Below are positions 3,249 through 35,869 of a stretch of 64,000 bases of DNA, piece by piece; the first letter of the stretch is position 1; every line of letters starts with the position of its first letter. The DNA comes from Desulfobacterales bacterium (GTDB lineage Bacteria > Desulfobacterota > Desulfobacteria > Desulfobacterales > JANQIE01). Location: the NCBI GenBank assembly GCA_028282295.1, contig JANQIE010000063.1, forward strand, positions 1-64,000. The letters run 5' to 3'. A program made the translations under genes and the position numbers. The notes under the pieces are model-generated. The model did not search any database and was not told the origin of the DNA. It saw only the letters and a program-made list of their open reading frames with translations.

Positions 3249-3599
3249 TCACCCCAGGCTCTTAACCCGCTCCATGGGGCTGACGATATCGGTGAGCCGC
3301 ACGCCGAATTTCTCGTTGACGACCACGACCTCGCCGCGGGCGACCAGTTTCTGGTTGATGTAAATTTCGAGCGGCTCACCGGCCAGTTTGTCCAATTCGA
3401 CAATCGATCCCTGGCCGAGCTGCAATAAATCGTTCACGATCATTTTGGTCTTGCCGAGTTCAACCGACAGCTCCAGGGGAATGTCGAGAATAAAATCGAT
3501 TTCACGATCGCCTTCATCAACTGCTTCCGCCGCCTCGGGCGCATCAGGGGCCTGTTCCTGTTCTTCCTGGGCTTCGGTGGTTTCGTTGGTATCTGCCAT
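3249..3599 (-). CDS. fliN: Flagellar motor switch protein FliN
   Basis: FliN forms the lower C-ring of the rotor with FliM and FliG and helps dock the export ATPase complex. The product has 116 residues: an acidic, Glu/Ala-rich N-terminal tail of about 35 residues, then a SpoA/SurA-type domain (about 40-115) with the typical LSVELGKTKM, GSIVELDKLAGEPLEIYIN and GVRLTDIVSPMERV segments. It starts with ATG at 3599, 6 bp after the fliM stop. Confidence 0.96.
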   Translation of the reverse strand: MADTNETTEAQEEQEQAPDAPEAAEAVDEGDREIDFILDIPLELSVELGKTKMIVNDLLQLGQGSIVELDKLAGEPLEIYINQKLVARGEVVVVNEKFGVRLTDIVSPMERVKSLG

Positions 3600-3605
3600 T
3601 TACGG

Positions 3606-4583
3606 TCACTCCATTTTTAATTTCGAATCAATTTTAAACGCCTGGAATCGGCGTTGGATACCGGCATAACCGAGATATTTCTGCACCCCTTCGATGAATC
3701 CGATCAGGGAGGTATCGGCATCCTGGTCAAGCTGAATGACGTCGCCCGGTTTTAATTGGATCAGGCGCTCACCGGTTATTTCAGCGCTGCCCAATTGCAC
3801 CGAAAATTCGACTTCCGATTTCATAATGAGCTTTTGAATCCGTTGCTGCCAGGACGCGTCGACTTCGAGGCGGTCGCTCTGAAAACCGGCCGTGAGTTTG
3901 TGACGCACCGGTTCGATCATGGCATAGGGCAGGCACACCGTGATGGAGCCCACGCTTTGTTCGAGTTCAACTTCAAATTTGGCCACGATCACCAGGTCCG
4001 CCGGCAACACAATCGTGGCAAATTGCGGGTTGACTTCCGAACGTATAAATGTGGTTTCAACTGTTTCCACCGGTTTCCAGGCGCGCTCTAAGTCTTTCAG
4101 GCAGGCGGCCACCACCTTTTCGATCATAACGCCCTCGATGCTCGTGAATTCCCGGCCTTCGATTTTGGCCTTGCCGGTGCCCTTGCCGCCGAAAAAGGTG
4201 TCGATGAGGTTATACACCAGTTGGCTCTCCAGCACGATCAGGGCATGGCCGCGCAACGGCGTCATCTTGAATACGTGCAGACTGGTGGGCACCGGCAGCG
4301 ACCGTCCGAATTCGGAAAACTTAAGGGTTTCGATGGATTCGGTGCTGATGTCGACACTGGTCATCAGCAGGTTCGACAGGCTGCTGCTCATTTCACCGGC
4401 CAACCGGTCGTTGATGACCTGGAAGGTCGGCATGCGTCCGCGAATGACGCGTTCCTGGCTGGCGAAATCGTAGGCTTGAATCCCGTCGGTTTCCGCCGGC
4501 AGATCGGTTTCGGTTTCGACCTTGCCGGCACTTAGCCCGGATAAGAGACTGTCAACTTCGCTTTGTGTTAGGATTTCGCTCAT
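3606..4583 (-). CDS. fliM: Flagellar motor switch protein FliM
   Basis: FliM is the C-ring switch protein that binds phosphorylated CheY and sets the direction of rotation. The product has 325 residues, the usual length. The N-terminal peptide ILTQSEVDSLLSG is the CheY-binding motif. A middle domain follows (about 45-230, including LIDTFFGGKG) and then a C-terminal SpoA domain (about 245-320, including VQLGSAEITGERLIQLKPGD). fliL lies 28 bp upstream and fliN 6 bp downstream, in one operon. Confidence 0.97.
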   Translation of the reverse strand: MSEILTQSEVDSLLSGLSAGKVETETDLPAETDGIQAYDFASQERVIRGRMPTFQVINDRLAGEMSSSLSNLLMTSVDISTESIETLKFSEFGRSLPVPTSLHVFKMTPLRGHALIVLESQLVYNLIDTFFGGKGTGKAKIEGREFTSIEGVMIEKVVAACLKDLERAWKPVETVETTFIRSEVNPQFATIVLPADLVIVAKFEVELEQSVGSITVCLPYAMIEPVRHKLTAGFQSDRLEVDASWQQRIQKLIMKSEVEFSVQLGSAEITGERLIQLKPGDVIQLDQDADTSLIGFIEGVQKYLGYAGIQRRFQAFKIDSKLKME

Positions 4584-4611: not shown

Positions 4612-5133
4612 CTACTGGATAACAAATTCGGTAAAATACAGGTTGCGGATGCGACCTTGCTTTATAAGCTGATTCAAGCGCATGATCAGCTCGCCCCGGA
4701 TGGCGATCTTGCCGTCCAGGGCCTGGACTTCTTCCATGTTTTTGCTGCTCAGCACCAGCAAAATGGTGTCGCGAAGCTGGGGTAAACGGCCGCTCAATTC
4801 CGCCTGGATATGCTCGTTGGCAATATATTCCAGCGCAATCTTGGTCTTCAGGTAGCGCTTGCCCCCGCCGTCGCTCAGATTCACCACAAATGTCTCCATT
4901 TCAAAAATCTGGCCGAAAACGTTCGGGTCCTGGGCGCCGGCGCCGGCTGTCTGCGCAGCGTCGGTCGTGGCCAGCTCGGGGGGTTTTTCCTCCTTGTCCT
5001 TGAGGAACATGGTCCAGCCGGCAAATCCGCCGCCGCCCAATATCCCCAGGGCCACCACGGCAATGATGATCAACTTGAGCTTTGAACCGCCCGATTCGTT
5101 TTCGCTGGTTTCTTTTTCGTTTTCTTCTGCCAC
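4612..5133 (-). CDS. fliL: Flagellar basal body-associated protein FliL
   Basis: FliL is a single-pass inner-membrane protein that surrounds the stator and supports torque. The 173-residue product has a charged cytoplasmic start, one membrane helix at about residues 21-43 (LKLIIIAVVALGILGGGG) and a periplasmic FliL domain with METFVVNLSDGGGKRYLKTK and a C-terminal YFTEFVIQ. The start is a GTG at 5133 with AGAGGT a few bases upstream. It lies 12 bp after motB, which fits its role at the stator. Confidence 0.93.
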   Translation of the reverse strand: MAEENEKETSENESGGSKLKLIIIAVVALGILGGGGFAGWTMFLKDKEEKPPELATTDAAQTAGAGAQDPNVFGQIFEMETFVVNLSDGGGKRYLKTKIALEYIANEHIQAELSGRLPQLRDTILLVLSSKNMEEVQALDGKIAIRGELIMRLNQLIKQGRIRNLYFTEFVIQ

Positions 5134-5145
5134 AATAGTACCTCT

Positions 5146-5889
5146 TTAACCTGTGGATTTACGTAAGATAAATTCAACGCGTCGATTTTTGGCCCGGTTG
5201 GCCTTGCTGTCGTTGGCAAAGCGCGGCGCCAGTTCACCGTAGCCGCCGACCGCCACCCGCCGCGGCTTGATCCCCGCACTATCCGTTATAAAATAAAGTG
5301 CACTGAGCGCCCGGTAGTAGGAAAGTTCCTTATTCGATCGAAAGACGGCGCTGCGCAACGGCACATTGTCCGTGTGTCCCATAATCAGGATGTCGTTGGT
5401 GGTGTATCGTAAAAACCGGGCGATGCGCTCCAGGATCGCCAGGCGTTCATGTCTTAACTGCGCGCTGCCGGAGTTGAACAGGTGGTCCGAGTCAAGGCTG
5501 ATATAAACACCACGCTCATCTTCCTTGATATCCAGGATATCCTTGACATTGATCATTTGACCGCGATCGACGCCGGCGGAATCGAAATCCTGCAACAACG
5601 CCATGGCCTCTTCCAGAAGATCGCTGTTTTCAATCTTGTCCGGTTTGCGGAATTTGACGGTACCGACATTAAACGGTCCCACCTCGGCATCGGCGGATGA
5701 GTACTGCAGCGGCCCTGTGGATAGAAAAGAATCGAACATTTTTTTGACCGTGCCGCCGTCCATCGACTTCATGGTAAGCAGCAGGACGAAAAAGGTCAGG
5801 AGCAACATCAACAAATCGGCAAACGTAATCATCCAGCCGTTGGGATCGACTTTGAATTCTTCGCCTTTGTCTTTTTTACCGGCTGCCAT
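5146..5889 (-). CDS. motB: Motility protein B (canonical, ion-binding Asp present)
   Basis: MotB is the peptidoglycan-anchored stator subunit that carries the ion-binding aspartate. The 247-residue product has the motif GWMITFADLLMLLLTFFVLL at about residues 18-37, with the essential Asp in FADLL. The C-terminal OmpA-like domain (about 115-245) has the NDILIMGHTDNVPLRS and RRVEFIL signatures that bind peptidoglycan. It begins 3 bp after the stop of the MotB-like gene and precedes fliL, so motA, two MotB-type genes and fliL form one stator block. Confidence 0.94.
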   Translation of the reverse strand: MAAGKKDKGEEFKVDPNGWMITFADLLMLLLTFFVLLLTMKSMDGGTVKKMFDSFLSTGPLQYSSADAEVGPFNVGTVKFRKPDKIENSDLLEEAMALLQDFDSAGVDRGQMINVKDILDIKEDERGVYISLDSDHLFNSGSAQLRHERLAILERIARFLRYTTNDILIMGHTDNVPLRSAVFRSNKELSYYRALSALYFITDSAGIKPRRVAVGGYGELAPRFANDSKANRAKNRRVEFILRKSTG

Positions 5890-5892
5890 GGT

Positions 5893-6642
5893 CTAGTCGA
5901 ACACCTTGAAAAAAAAGCGTTTGAAGATAAACACACCGGATGGCTTATCCGGCTGCTTGTCGTGTATAAACACAACTTCCATGCGGCGGTTCATGGCCCG
6001 GGTTTCAGGCGTTGTGTTCGAGGTCAGCGGCCGGTGCGCCCCCCAGCCAAAAGCGGATATTCGTTCCGGACGGACCTTGCCGTTGGCAACGAAATACTCG
6101 AACAGACGCAAACTGCGCGCTACTGATACTTCGCGCGTACTCGGGGCCTGTGCGGCCACGGCCTGCCCATTGTCCATATGGCCGACGATATCCACCGGAT
6201 AGTCATTGGTGCGCATCACCTGCGCCAACGGTTCCAGCCAGCGTCCGGCGGTGGGGTGCAGGTTCGAACCACCCGGTTCAAAGATCAAATCCGCCGGCAA
6301 CCGAACCACACTGCCCCGCTTGTTTTCGGTCACGCGGATATTCAGCGAAAAATCGCTCTCATCCTGAAACAAGGGCGAAAAGTCGACTTGACTTGTTTCC
6401 GTCTGGAAGGTCGGCGACCCGAGATCCAACGACAGTTTCGCCACCAATGAATCGCCACCGGCCATAATACTGAAACTGCGCAGCAGAGACCCCAAAGCCA
6501 TCAACTTTTTCTTCTCATCCACGATGGCGATGGCGTTCAGAAGAATAAAAAAGGCCAATAAAATGATAAACAGGGACACCGTCATCATCTGGATCAAACC
6601 GGAGCCATCCGGTGCATCGTCGGTCTTTTTCTTCCGTGCCAT
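5893..6642 (-). CDS. MotB-like OmpA-domain protein lacking the membrane aspartate
   Basis: The 249-residue product has the MotB layout: a basic N-terminus, one membrane helix at about residues 16-42 and a C-terminal OmpA domain (about 110-230) with VDIVGHMDN and MNRRMEVVF. The helix reads GLIQMMTVSLFIILLAFFIL and has no Asp or Glu where MotB has the FADL aspartate. It sits between motA (12 bp upstream) and the normal motB (3 bp downstream). It may be a structural stator partner, a regulator, or part of a heteromeric stator; these roles are inference. It is unlikely to conduct ions by itself. Confidence 0.8.
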   Translation of the reverse strand: MARKKKTDDAPDGSGLIQMMTVSLFIILLAFFILLNAIAIVDEKKKLMALGSLLRSFSIMAGGDSLVAKLSLDLGSPTFQTETSQVDFSPLFQDESDFSLNIRVTENKRGSVVRLPADLIFEPGGSNLHPTAGRWLEPLAQVMRTNDYPVDIVGHMDNGQAVAAQAPSTREVSVARSLRLFEYFVANGKVRPERISAFGWGAHRPLTSNTTPETRAMNRRMEVVFIHDKQPDKPSGVFIFKRFFFKVFD

Positions 6643-6654
6643 GGCGGTCCGTGG

Positions 6655-7431
6655 TTATCCTTCGCCCTGCTCAAAGGCGGCCTTGCGAATTTTAGGAGAG
6701 ATGAAAGCCAGCATTTTCTGCTCTAAAATACGCGGGTTTTCACCCTTGGTCAGCGAAATTACACCTTCGGTAATCATTTCCTTGGCCAGGGTCTCTTCTT
6801 TACTTCGGGTGCGCAACTTACCGGCCAGGGGCATGAAAATCAGGTTGGCCAGCACGGAGCCGTAAAAGGTCGTAAGCAGGGCCACCGCCATGGACGGGCC
6901 GATAGAGCTGGGATCGTCCATCGATTGGAGCATTTGCACCAGGCCGATCAGGGTTCCGATCATCCCCAGGGCCGGGGCAAAGGTGCCCATGGTCGAGACA
7001 ATTTCAGCACCCAGTTGATGCCGTTCCCGCAGAAAATCGACCTCGGTGGCCATGATGTTTTCAATGGCCTGGGGTTCGAGGCCGTCAACGGAAAGCTGCA
7101 GCCCTTTTTTCAGAAATTCATCACTTACGTTTTTGACATCGGCTTCCAAGGCCAGGATGCCTTCACGCCGCGCCTTGGAGCCGAATTCCACAAACTGCTT
7201 GATGATCTCTTCCACCCCTTGCGCTTTGCTGAAAAACGCATTCTTGATGACGCCGATTGTACCCAGGACTTCTTTTAAAGGATAATTAATCATGGTGGTG
7301 CCCAGCGTGCCGCCCACCACGATCATCAACGAGGGGATATTGATGAACATGCCGATTCCGCCGCCCATGAGAATGGCGACCAAAACCAGGCCAAATGCGG
7401 AAATCGTTCCGACTAATGTTGCGATATCCAT
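6655..7431 (-). CDS. motA: Motility protein A, stator subunit (flagellar cluster copy)
   Basis: MotA forms the ion channel and torque-generating ring around MotB. The 258-residue product has four membrane helices (about 3-22, 28-50, 150-172 and 182-204) and the cytoplasmic loop in between. Conserved stretches include GTFAPALGMIGTLIGLVQML and AVALLTTFYGSVLANLIFMP, which line the channel. It starts with ATG at 7431 and heads the motA-motB-fliL-fliM-fliN block. A sigma-54 promoter candidate lies 147 bp upstream, with an R1 hairpin between promoter and gene. Confidence 0.95.
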   Translation of the reverse strand: MDIATLVGTISAFGLVLVAILMGGGIGMFINIPSLMIVVGGTLGTTMINYPLKEVLGTIGVIKNAFFSKAQGVEEIIKQFVEFGSKARREGILALEADVKNVSDEFLKKGLQLSVDGLEPQAIENIMATEVDFLRERHQLGAEIVSTMGTFAPALGMIGTLIGLVQMLQSMDDPSSIGPSMAVALLTTFYGSVLANLIFMPLAGKLRTRSKEETLAKEMITEGVISLTKGENPRILEQKMLAFISPKIRKAAFEQGEG

Positions 7432-34352: not shown

Positions 34353-35129
34353 ATGGACAAAGCCTCATTTACCGGTATCGTCTCCGGCATCATCCTGATT
34401 ATCAGCGCAATCGTCATCGGCGGCGACGTTCACAATTTCGTCAATTTGCCCGGTCTGATGATCGTCGTCGGCGGCACCATGGCGACCACCCTCTTCACAT
34501 TTCAGTTCAAGGATGTTGTGGCGTCCTTTAAAGCCGCCTACTATGTTTTCTCCGAAGACAAGGACGATCCCAACCGCATGGTGTCGACCATGATCAAGCT
34601 GTGTCACGTCAGCCGACGGCAGGGACCGCTTGAACTGGGCAATATCAAAACCAAATCACGTTTTCTAAAAAAAGCGTGCAGTCTGATCGCCGACGGCTCC
34701 AGCGAGGAGGTGATCCGCCAGGCCCTGCGCACCGAGATTGAATCGATGAAAATGCGCCATTTTATCGTCCAGGATGTCTTTCGCAAAATGGGGACCTATT
34801 CCCCGGCTTTCGGCATGCTGGGCACCCTGATCGGCCTGATCCAGATGCTCAGCCGCATGGAAGACCCGTCCACCATCGGGCCGGCCATGGCCGTGGCCCT
34901 TTTGACGACATTTTACGGCTCGCTGTTCTCCACCATGTTCTTTTTGCCGATCGCCGGCAAGCTCAAAGCGCGCACCATCCTGCAAGTAATCAACCTGGAA
35001 ATCATGTTCGAAGGCGCCATCTCCATCATGGAAAACAACAACCCGGTAATCGTTTACGAAAAACTCTCCTCCTTCATACCGGCCAAAATCCGTAAACCGC
35101 TAAGTTCCATAAGACCCGTGGGTGCATGA
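34353..35129 (+). CDS. motA: Motility protein A, second stator set
   Basis: The 258-residue product has four membrane helices and the channel motifs GTYSPAFGMLGTLIGLIQML and AVALLTTFYGSLFSTMFFLP. It is clearly related to the copy at 6655 but well diverged from it, so it is an old paralogue. It starts with ATG at 34353 and overlaps motB by 4 bp (ATGA). It stands apart from the flagellar cluster, with its own sigma-28-like promoter, as expected for a late, exchangeable stator. Confidence 0.95.
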   Translation: MDKASFTGIVSGIILIISAIVIGGDVHNFVNLPGLMIVVGGTMATTLFTFQFKDVVASFKAAYYVFSEDKDDPNRMVSTMIKLCHVSRRQGPLELGNIKTKSRFLKKACSLIADGSSEEVIRQALRTEIESMKMRHFIVQDVFRKMGTYSPAFGMLGTLIGLIQMLSRMEDPSTIGPAMAVALLTTFYGSLFSTMFFLPIAGKLKARTILQVINLEIMFEGAISIMENNNPVIVYEKLSSFIPAKIRKPLSSIRPVGA

Positions 35130-35869
35130 GCAAAAACGATTCGCCGATACATTCCCTTTTTTTGGAAGAAGATGAACAGGCCGGCGGCTGGCTCGTCACC
35201 TACGCTGATCTGGTCACCCTGCTGCTGGTCTTTTTCTTGTTACTCTACTCCATGTCCACGTTGAACCTGGAACGCTTCAAGAACGCCCTGGCATCGATCC
35301 AGGTCAGCCTCAACGAAGACCGGCCGGCGGCCCAGCTTATCCGGATTGCCGAAATCTCCCAACAAACAAATCAACCGTTTGTACTGGAACGGGCCAGCGG
35401 CCTGCGCACGGAAAAAAAAGACATCCTGCAAGACCTGACGGAATACATCGAAGAAGAAAATCTGGGCGACCATATCATCTACTACCAGTCCCAGGGGAGA
35501 ATTATCATCCAAATCCGGGGGGCGGTTCTGTTCGGGTCGGGTCAGGCCGATATCAACCGCACGGCGTTTCCGATACTCGGCGACATTTCCACCCTGCTCG
35601 AAGAATACGCCGATTACAGCATCAACATCAAAGGCCACACCGACAACCAGCCGATCGCAACAGCGCAATTTCCCTCCAACTGGGAGCTGTCGGCGGTGCG
35701 CGCCACCAGCGTCCTGAAGTTCTTCATCAGTGAAGGGATCGACGCCAGACGCCTGACCGCCACCGGTTACGGCGATCTCATGCCGTTGGTGCCGAACACC
35801 ACCCCTGCAAACCGGGCCCAAAACAGAAGAGTTGAATTCGTTCTGGAAAAACAGGAACCCTGGCAATAG
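35126..35869 (+). CDS. motB: Motility protein B, second stator set
   Basis: The 247-residue product has the ion-binding helix GGWLVTYADLVTLLLVFFLL near residue 20, with the essential Asp present. The OmpA-like peptidoglycan-binding domain (about 110-245) has YSINIKGHTDNQPI and NRRVEFVLEK. It overlaps motA copy 2. Its helix has Tyr where the flagellar-cluster MotB has Phe, and the downstream plug region differs. This could mean different ion choice or load response, which sequence alone cannot tell. Confidence 0.94.
   Translation: MSKNDSPIHSLFLEEDEQAGGWLVTYADLVTLLLVFFLLLYSMSTLNLERFKNALASIQVSLNEDRPAAQLIRIAEISQQTNQPFVLERASGLRTEKKDILQDLTEYIEEENLGDHIIYYQSQGRIIIQIRGAVLFGSGQADINRTAFPILGDISTLLEEYADYSINIKGHTDNQPIATAQFPSNWELSAVRATSVLKFFISEGIDARRLTATGYGDLMPLVPNTTPANRAQNRRVEFVLEKQEPWQ

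Follow-up and report, generated by a model that had tools for sequence, protein, structure and literature searches.

Between motA and an ordinary motB, the flagellar operon of a Desulfobacterales bacterium encodes a MotB paralogue that lacks the ion-binding aspartate of the membrane helix. We found that this arrangement is a conserved cassette in which the paralogue has lost all charge from its helix, that the two MotB-type copies separated in one old split, that the paralogue is under purifying selection, and that several genomes hold this cassette and no other stator that we found. Our preferred reading, to which we give a probability of roughly 0.55, is that the paralogue (MotB', or B'; the adjoining MotB is called B) forms the non-ion-binding half of the MotB axle, which would make the stator an asymmetric MotA5-MotB-MotB' complex with a single ion site. 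The pairing of unlike subunits, the 5:1:1 stoichiometry and the single-site mechanism are what we infer from these observations.

A MotB paralogue without the ion-binding aspartate lies between motA and motB

The window, i.e., the whole 64,000-nucleotide stretch of DNA that was analysed, contains the following features:

5893..6642, minus strand: motB', MotB paralogue without the ion-binding Asp, 249 aa with an ATG start (ORF, Pfam OmpA and weak MotB_plug, conserved cassette)
6535..6600, minus strand: membrane helix of MotB', residues 15-36 (alignment)
6574-6576, minus strand: Ser23 of MotB', at the MotB Asp position (alignment)
5986..6282, minus strand: OmpA-like peptidoglycan-binding domain of MotB', residues 121-219 (Pfam, Foldseek)
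5896..5943, minus strand: aromatic C-terminal tail of MotB', residues 234-249, PSGVFIFKRFFFKVFD (conserved tail pattern)
5146..5889, minus strand: motB, normal B subunit with Asp25, codon 5815-5817 (ORF, Pfam)
6655..7431, minus strand: motA, stator ring subunit (Pfam MotA_ExbB, 111 bits)
4612..5133, minus strand: fliL, stator-associated protein (Pfam FliL, 90.5 bits)
3606..4583, minus strand: presumably fliM (C-ring), downstream (ORF)
3249..3599, minus strand: presumably fliN (C-ring), downstream (ORF)

The last two names are based on the translations of the ORFs. All of these genes lie on the minus strand in the order motA-motB'-motB-fliL-fliM-fliN, with 3 nt between the end of motB' and the start of motB by the window's ORFs, in line with a preliminary description that had placed the gene between motA and the true motB. 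The neighboring MotB carries WMITFADLLMLLLTFF. When the two helices are aligned, QMMTVSLFIILLAFFILL in B' stands against MITFADLLMLLLTFFVLL in MotB, with Ser23 at the Asp position and no acidic residue anywhere in the B' helix, and thus the claim that an acidic residue is missing from this site also held. So did the claim of a retained OmpA domain, which Pfam recognized in B' at 51.1 bits (cut-off 27.2); MotB_plug scored 21.8 bits, slightly under its cut-off of 24, and the neighboring MotB scored 53.5 and 50.5 bits for OmpA and MotB_plug, respectively. Overall, B' has the layout of a MotB, namely one N-terminal membrane helix with the FF motif and an OmpA-like C-terminal domain with the binding-site Asp and Arg; the ion-binding Asp in the membrane helix, which defines MotB, is Ser23 here.

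The window also holds a second, ordinary motA-motB pair (34353-35129 and 35126-35869, plus strand, with TYADLV and a 4-base overlap) outside the flagellar operon, and a third pair with the normal Asp lies on another contig of the same genome (C196).

The tandem pair is conserved among Desulfobacterota

Using the protein or full-length profiles, we searched relatives, the order (389 genomes) and, twice, the phylum (395 genomes), and annotated the loci by script. Since loci were retrieved with B'-type profiles, mainly as the best of the matches listed, the counts below describe loci examined and not the phylum. These loci yielded 112 distinct tandem pairs, 110 of them from Desulfobacterota: 95 from distinct genomes (37 family codes) and 15 from named records, which include the cultured Desulfatibacillum alkenivorans DSM 16219. 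In the 95 genomes, the first copy carries Ser (46), Gly (33), Ala (8), Asn (1) or Asp (4) at the Asp position, three being unreadable, and the second copy carries Asp in every case (95/95). The preliminary description had proposed an alignment of homologues as the check on the missing Asp; once run, it gave Ser, Gly, Ala or Asn in 88 of the 92 scored first copies. This tally excludes the 15 named pairs, all of which are Ser/Asp, because the pattern scan that found them itself required Ser. Homologues with an Asp, named in advance as evidence against the idea, do exist (4/92), one being an independent duplication and three lying within the B' clade; they do not overturn the rule.

The gene order motA-B'-B-fliL(-fliM) was found in 95 of the 110 stretches, and most of the others were cut by contig ends or had overlapping frames that were sorted differently. 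Median gaps were 6 nt for motA-motB' and 3 nt for motB'-motB, as measured with guessed start codons (the first Met in range). Not every locus has the cassette: a single Asp-bearing MotB in a motA-motB-fliL-fliM arrangement was found at three loci of the window's order (L137, L140, L141) and at one outside it (L237). Because 88 of 92 scored first copies share both the gene order and the absence of the Asp with the window, its loss there is not a matter of chance, and the occurrence of an Asp-less B' beside an Asp-bearing B is confirmed and wider than the window. At one further locus (L112, G206:C2:88000), the match fell within a reported frame of 24231 aa, which probably represents masked sequence taken as open, and its incomplete B' was left unscored.

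The membrane helix of MotB' is uncharged and retains the FF motif

No charged residue was found at helix positions -2 to +13 (numbered from the Asp position) in any of the 103 readable Asp-less B' of Desulfobacterota, named loci included, as against 106 of 106 partner B with a charge in this stretch. The FF motif is kept in Asp-less B' as it is in MotB (F+9 in 103/103, F+8 in 101/103), and position +3, which is Thr or Met in partner B, is mostly Leu or Ile in B'. AlphaFold modeled a helix over residues 14-41 of the window's B', with a pLDDT of about 89 for residues 21-30.

An ion path can include Ser or Asn, and some stators run on other coupling ions. One might thus suppose that B' still conducts, through another residue or another ion, and that both halves of the axle are active. 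We regard this as highly improbable, as the position is also occupied by Gly (33/103) or Ala (8/103), and none of the 103 helices carries a charge elsewhere.

As for the packing of the axle, the helix-helix contacts of E. coli MotB are described at -1, +2, +6, +9 and +13, i.e., A31, M34, M38, F41 and W45 (PMC10659934). At contact +13 the mean residue volume is 112 in B', 176 in B and 185 in single MotB; in all 35 family representatives the residue is small in B' (N, C, S, T, rarely A or V) and large in B (L, F, I, Y), which offers a fair hint that unlike helices would pair. At -1, the volume in B' falls as that in B rises (r -0.66, with one pair taken from each of 35 families). This signal ranks 8 of 272 position pairs, seven being more extreme, and by group it gives r -0.05 within clade A (the window's clade) and -0.48 in the rest. 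It thus lies largely between clades, may reflect one event, and is a weak hint for mixed pairing.

The periplasmic domain of MotB' is unevenly preserved

The AlphaFold model of B' has a confident OmpA fold, whose best PDB matches by Foldseek are the periplasmic domains of MotS and MotB, and a second helix at residues 44-56, predicted at low pLDDT; these models are of single chains and add little on assembly. MotB_plug was matched at E<=0.01 by 19 of 20 homologues. We take the Asp of GHTD and the Arg of LSxxRA in the OmpA domain to be its peptidoglycan-binding residues. The window's B' has both by alignment, and so do nearly all B' outside clade A (Asp 55/56, Arg 55/56); clade-A B' keep the Asp in 41 of 47 and the Arg in 21 of 47, and this last count, which weighs against our reading, argues that a role in anchoring, shared with MotB, is not general. 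Almost all clade-A B' (45/47) end in an aromatic tail, found in 4 of 56 other B' and in 0 of 106 partner MotB, which could dock to another periplasmic protein.

Such features suit the main rival to our reading, in which B' would sit outside the MotA ring as a membrane-tethered periplasmic accessory that recruits, plugs, anchors or assembles MotA5MotB2, in the manner of MotX/MotY, FliL or MotK/MotE. The OmpA domain retained in Desulfobacterota, the nearness of the gene to fliL and the resemblance of the clade-A tail to a docking motif all speak for it. An accessory role would explain the domain and the tail, but it does not explain the conserved helix, and three members of the B' clade carry a normal ion-binding helix. 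Kinship with MotY was rejected, as the NCBIfam match reached 22.8 bits against a cut-off of 400. We thus rate an accessory role as rather doubtful, and return to it below.

MotB' and MotB separated once, and MotB' is under purifying selection

A 108-protein tree needed two label changes for its 42 first copies, and all except one of these lay on one side. The exception is a motA-motB-motB tandem in genome G043 (L015/L146), an independent duplication with Asp in both copies. When the helix and everything before it were removed, the 41 other first copies formed one side of a branch with a support of 96; both trees are of a quick kind, with SH-aLRT support only. Since B' separates from B with and without the helix, a single split accounts for B' and B in this set, and the two have since been passed on as a pair. 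On the helix-less tree at least three changes are required to explain where B' has an Asp and where it does not, and three B'-clade proteins (G492, G724 and G761; L220, L236 and L154) bear a canonical Asp-bearing MotB helix. These are either relics or regains, possibly copied in part from the neighboring motB, and they hint that the B' helix acts where that of MotB does.

The missing Asp and the missed MotB_plug cut-off could also be signs of a decaying duplicate, which the preliminary description had named as a finding that would undo its claim. However, in 12 of 13 close pairs (the other was saturated) dN/dS ranges over 0.05-0.49 in B' and 0.05-0.73 in B, so that B' is under purifying selection of a strength close to that on its partner, and it is conserved in 37 family codes. 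Decay is ruled out on these grounds, and the probability that we leave to a pseudogene is negligible.

In several genomes the cassette is the only stator found

We searched 80 of the 95 genomes for MotA (at E 1e-12, a threshold that a diverged MotA could have escaped) and found exactly one in 40. A check for MotB-type helices in 27 of these 40 gave exactly two, both in the cassette, in 20 genomes, and one or two further helices in the remaining 7. Two of the 20 are Asp/Asp (G492 and G724). This leaves 18 of the 27 genomes checked, with the single-contig genomes G171, G425 and G707 among the 18, in which no MotA and no MotB-type helix was found outside a cassette with an Asp-less B'. In these genomes the cassette should therefore be the stator that turns the flagellum. 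Against a mixed stator we count that many cassette genomes, including the window's, also have a normal motA-motB elsewhere.

With one motA found in half of the genomes searched, B' might also share that MotA in complexes of its own: B' homodimers would form separate, non-conducting MotA5MotB'2 units that serve as spares, brakes or scaffolds around the rotor. The FF motif kept in B' fits such units. Mildly against them are the tight coupling of motB' to motB and contact +13, where a B'-B' pair would be small-small, unlike single MotB, which is large there. We consider these homodimers unlikely.

A similar pair occurs in Alphaproteobacteria

Three matches of the pattern scan that required Ser came from Alphaproteobacteria. 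One of them belongs to an order in which its B' has matches in 70 of 114 genomes, and all 30 loci examined there have a B' (Ser 23, Ala 6, Gly 1) beside a B with Asp. Across the class, the alphaproteobacterial B' is matched in 61 of 289 genomes. Among the best 30 class-level loci, one of which (G769) repeats an order-level locus, B' carries Ser (13), Gly (13) or Ala (4), and a B lies beside it in 29, each with Asp (27 by pattern, two by reading). The three alphaproteobacterial B' that we tested have no OmpA match and keep the helix and the start of the plug (part of the profile); of the three B tested, two have plug and OmpA and the third has the plug and no OmpA match.

In all 11 genomes checked (L280-L290), a MotA lies away from the B'-B pair and has no MotB in its retrieved flanks; next to it lie frames that we take to be fliH-like in the three read, one of these also having a fliN-like frame. 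Taken with the B'-B pair elsewhere, this solitary MotA looks like a split three-part stator. A classical motA-motB was found in three other alphaproteobacterial genomes (L179, L181 and L182). At L280-L290 and L299-L328, MotA stands alone and the pair lies elsewhere among flagellar genes, beside cheZ-like, motE-like and large motK-like genes. The last two names are our own assignments, made from the translations together with PMC10954123.

In profile HMM comparisons, alphaproteobacterial B' scored 120.7 against Desulfobacterota B' (probability 98.9) and 31.7 against B (24.6); across phyla, B with B scored 224.1 and B with B' 161.3. As B' pairs with B' and B with B, the pair is probably homologous across the two phyla, by descent or by transfer. 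Convergence is unlikely, given 120.7 for B'-B' versus 31.7 for B'-B.

The motE- and motK-like neighbors of these pairs add to the case for an accessory. Yet the part of B' that is conserved in both phyla is the membrane helix with its FF motif, not the periplasmic domain.

A proposed asymmetric stator and its precedents

Because the helix is kept where the peptidoglycan domain erodes or vanishes, because its FF motif is retained, and because some B'-clade proteins carry Asp helices, we infer that MotB' pairs with MotB inside MotA. In the asymmetric stator, one Asp-bearing MotB and one MotB' with a small neutral residue would thus pair within the MotA pentamer; MotB' would contribute the second helix and a share of the periplasmic dimer, leaving ion handling and most of the anchoring to peptidoglycan to MotB. 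A residue such as Ser, Ala, Gly or Asn is always neutral, like a permanently protonated Asp, so that the mixed axle would have one working site. Such an axle would need another cycle, perhaps, as a speculation, of one ion per 72 degrees. That flagellar motors of at least two phyla run on one-ion-site MotA5-MotB-MotB' stators in this way, with one ion per 72 degrees (5 per turn) versus one per 36 degrees (10 per turn), is a tentative proposal, which we deem possible rather than probable. The four Asp-bearing first copies count against a single site, as do published rotation models, in which the motor advances in 36-degree steps with two Asp working in turn (PMC10659934, PMC9389320). Of the two options raised in the preliminary description, the MotA-MotB-MotB' stator is now the better supported, by the conserved cassette, by the genomes in which it is the only stator found and by a helix that outlasts the peptidoglycan domain; the accessory stays as its chief competitor, at the lower probability given above.

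Descriptions of the known 5:2 ion-driven motors give them two identical B subunits, and in models of rotation the ions pass alternately over two Asp. An Asp-less B subunit that is conserved and long-lived would demonstrate that one-site axles are used in nature, and would provide a ready-made system in which to study the need for both ion sites, the ion cost per turn and the pairing of unlike axle halves. If our reading is true, many flagellar operons encode a third stator subunit that has been overlooked as a spare protein of the OmpA family, and the one-site motor would be a lower-cost gear unforeseen by two-site turnstile models.

In the open PMC literature (subscription papers lie outside this scope), we recognized no description of stator operons with a MotB paralogue that lacks the Asp. 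According to a 2025 survey of MotAB, which drew its homologues from 205 genomes or taxa, the B gene follows A directly in most genomes; it uses neither 'tandem' nor 'two MotB' as a term (PMC12505986). With the classical stators (MotA5MotB2, PomAB, MotPS), B' shares the layout and the descent of MotB, and the MotA and MotB of the cassette are ordinary family members; B' differs in lacking the ion-binding Asp that defines a B subunit. It resembles MotX/MotY, MotC, MotE and MotK in being an extra protein tied to stator function. However, MotE and MotK are described as exported periplasmic proteins without a MotB-type helix, and identity with Cereibacter MotK or MotE was rejected (PMC10954123).

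The closest precedents are found in Aquifex and Myxococcus. Aquifex aeolicus has one motA followed by two motB in one operon, motA-motB1-motB2, where the helix regions of MotB1 and MotB2 share a reported identity of 97% and chimeras of both are functional in E. coli (PMC4525482). In the pair described here, the ion-binding helices are not near-identical: they differ at the Asp and around it, and one of them has neither the Asp nor any charge. The Myxococcus AglR-AglQ-AglS motor likewise combines one ring subunit with two different B subunits, of which hetero-pairing has been considered and not shown, the sources leaving hetero- or homodimers undecided (PMC9120999, PMC9389320). It differs in driving gliding rather than a flagellum, and in that the conserved Asp is predicted for AglQ as well as for AglS (PMC9389320).
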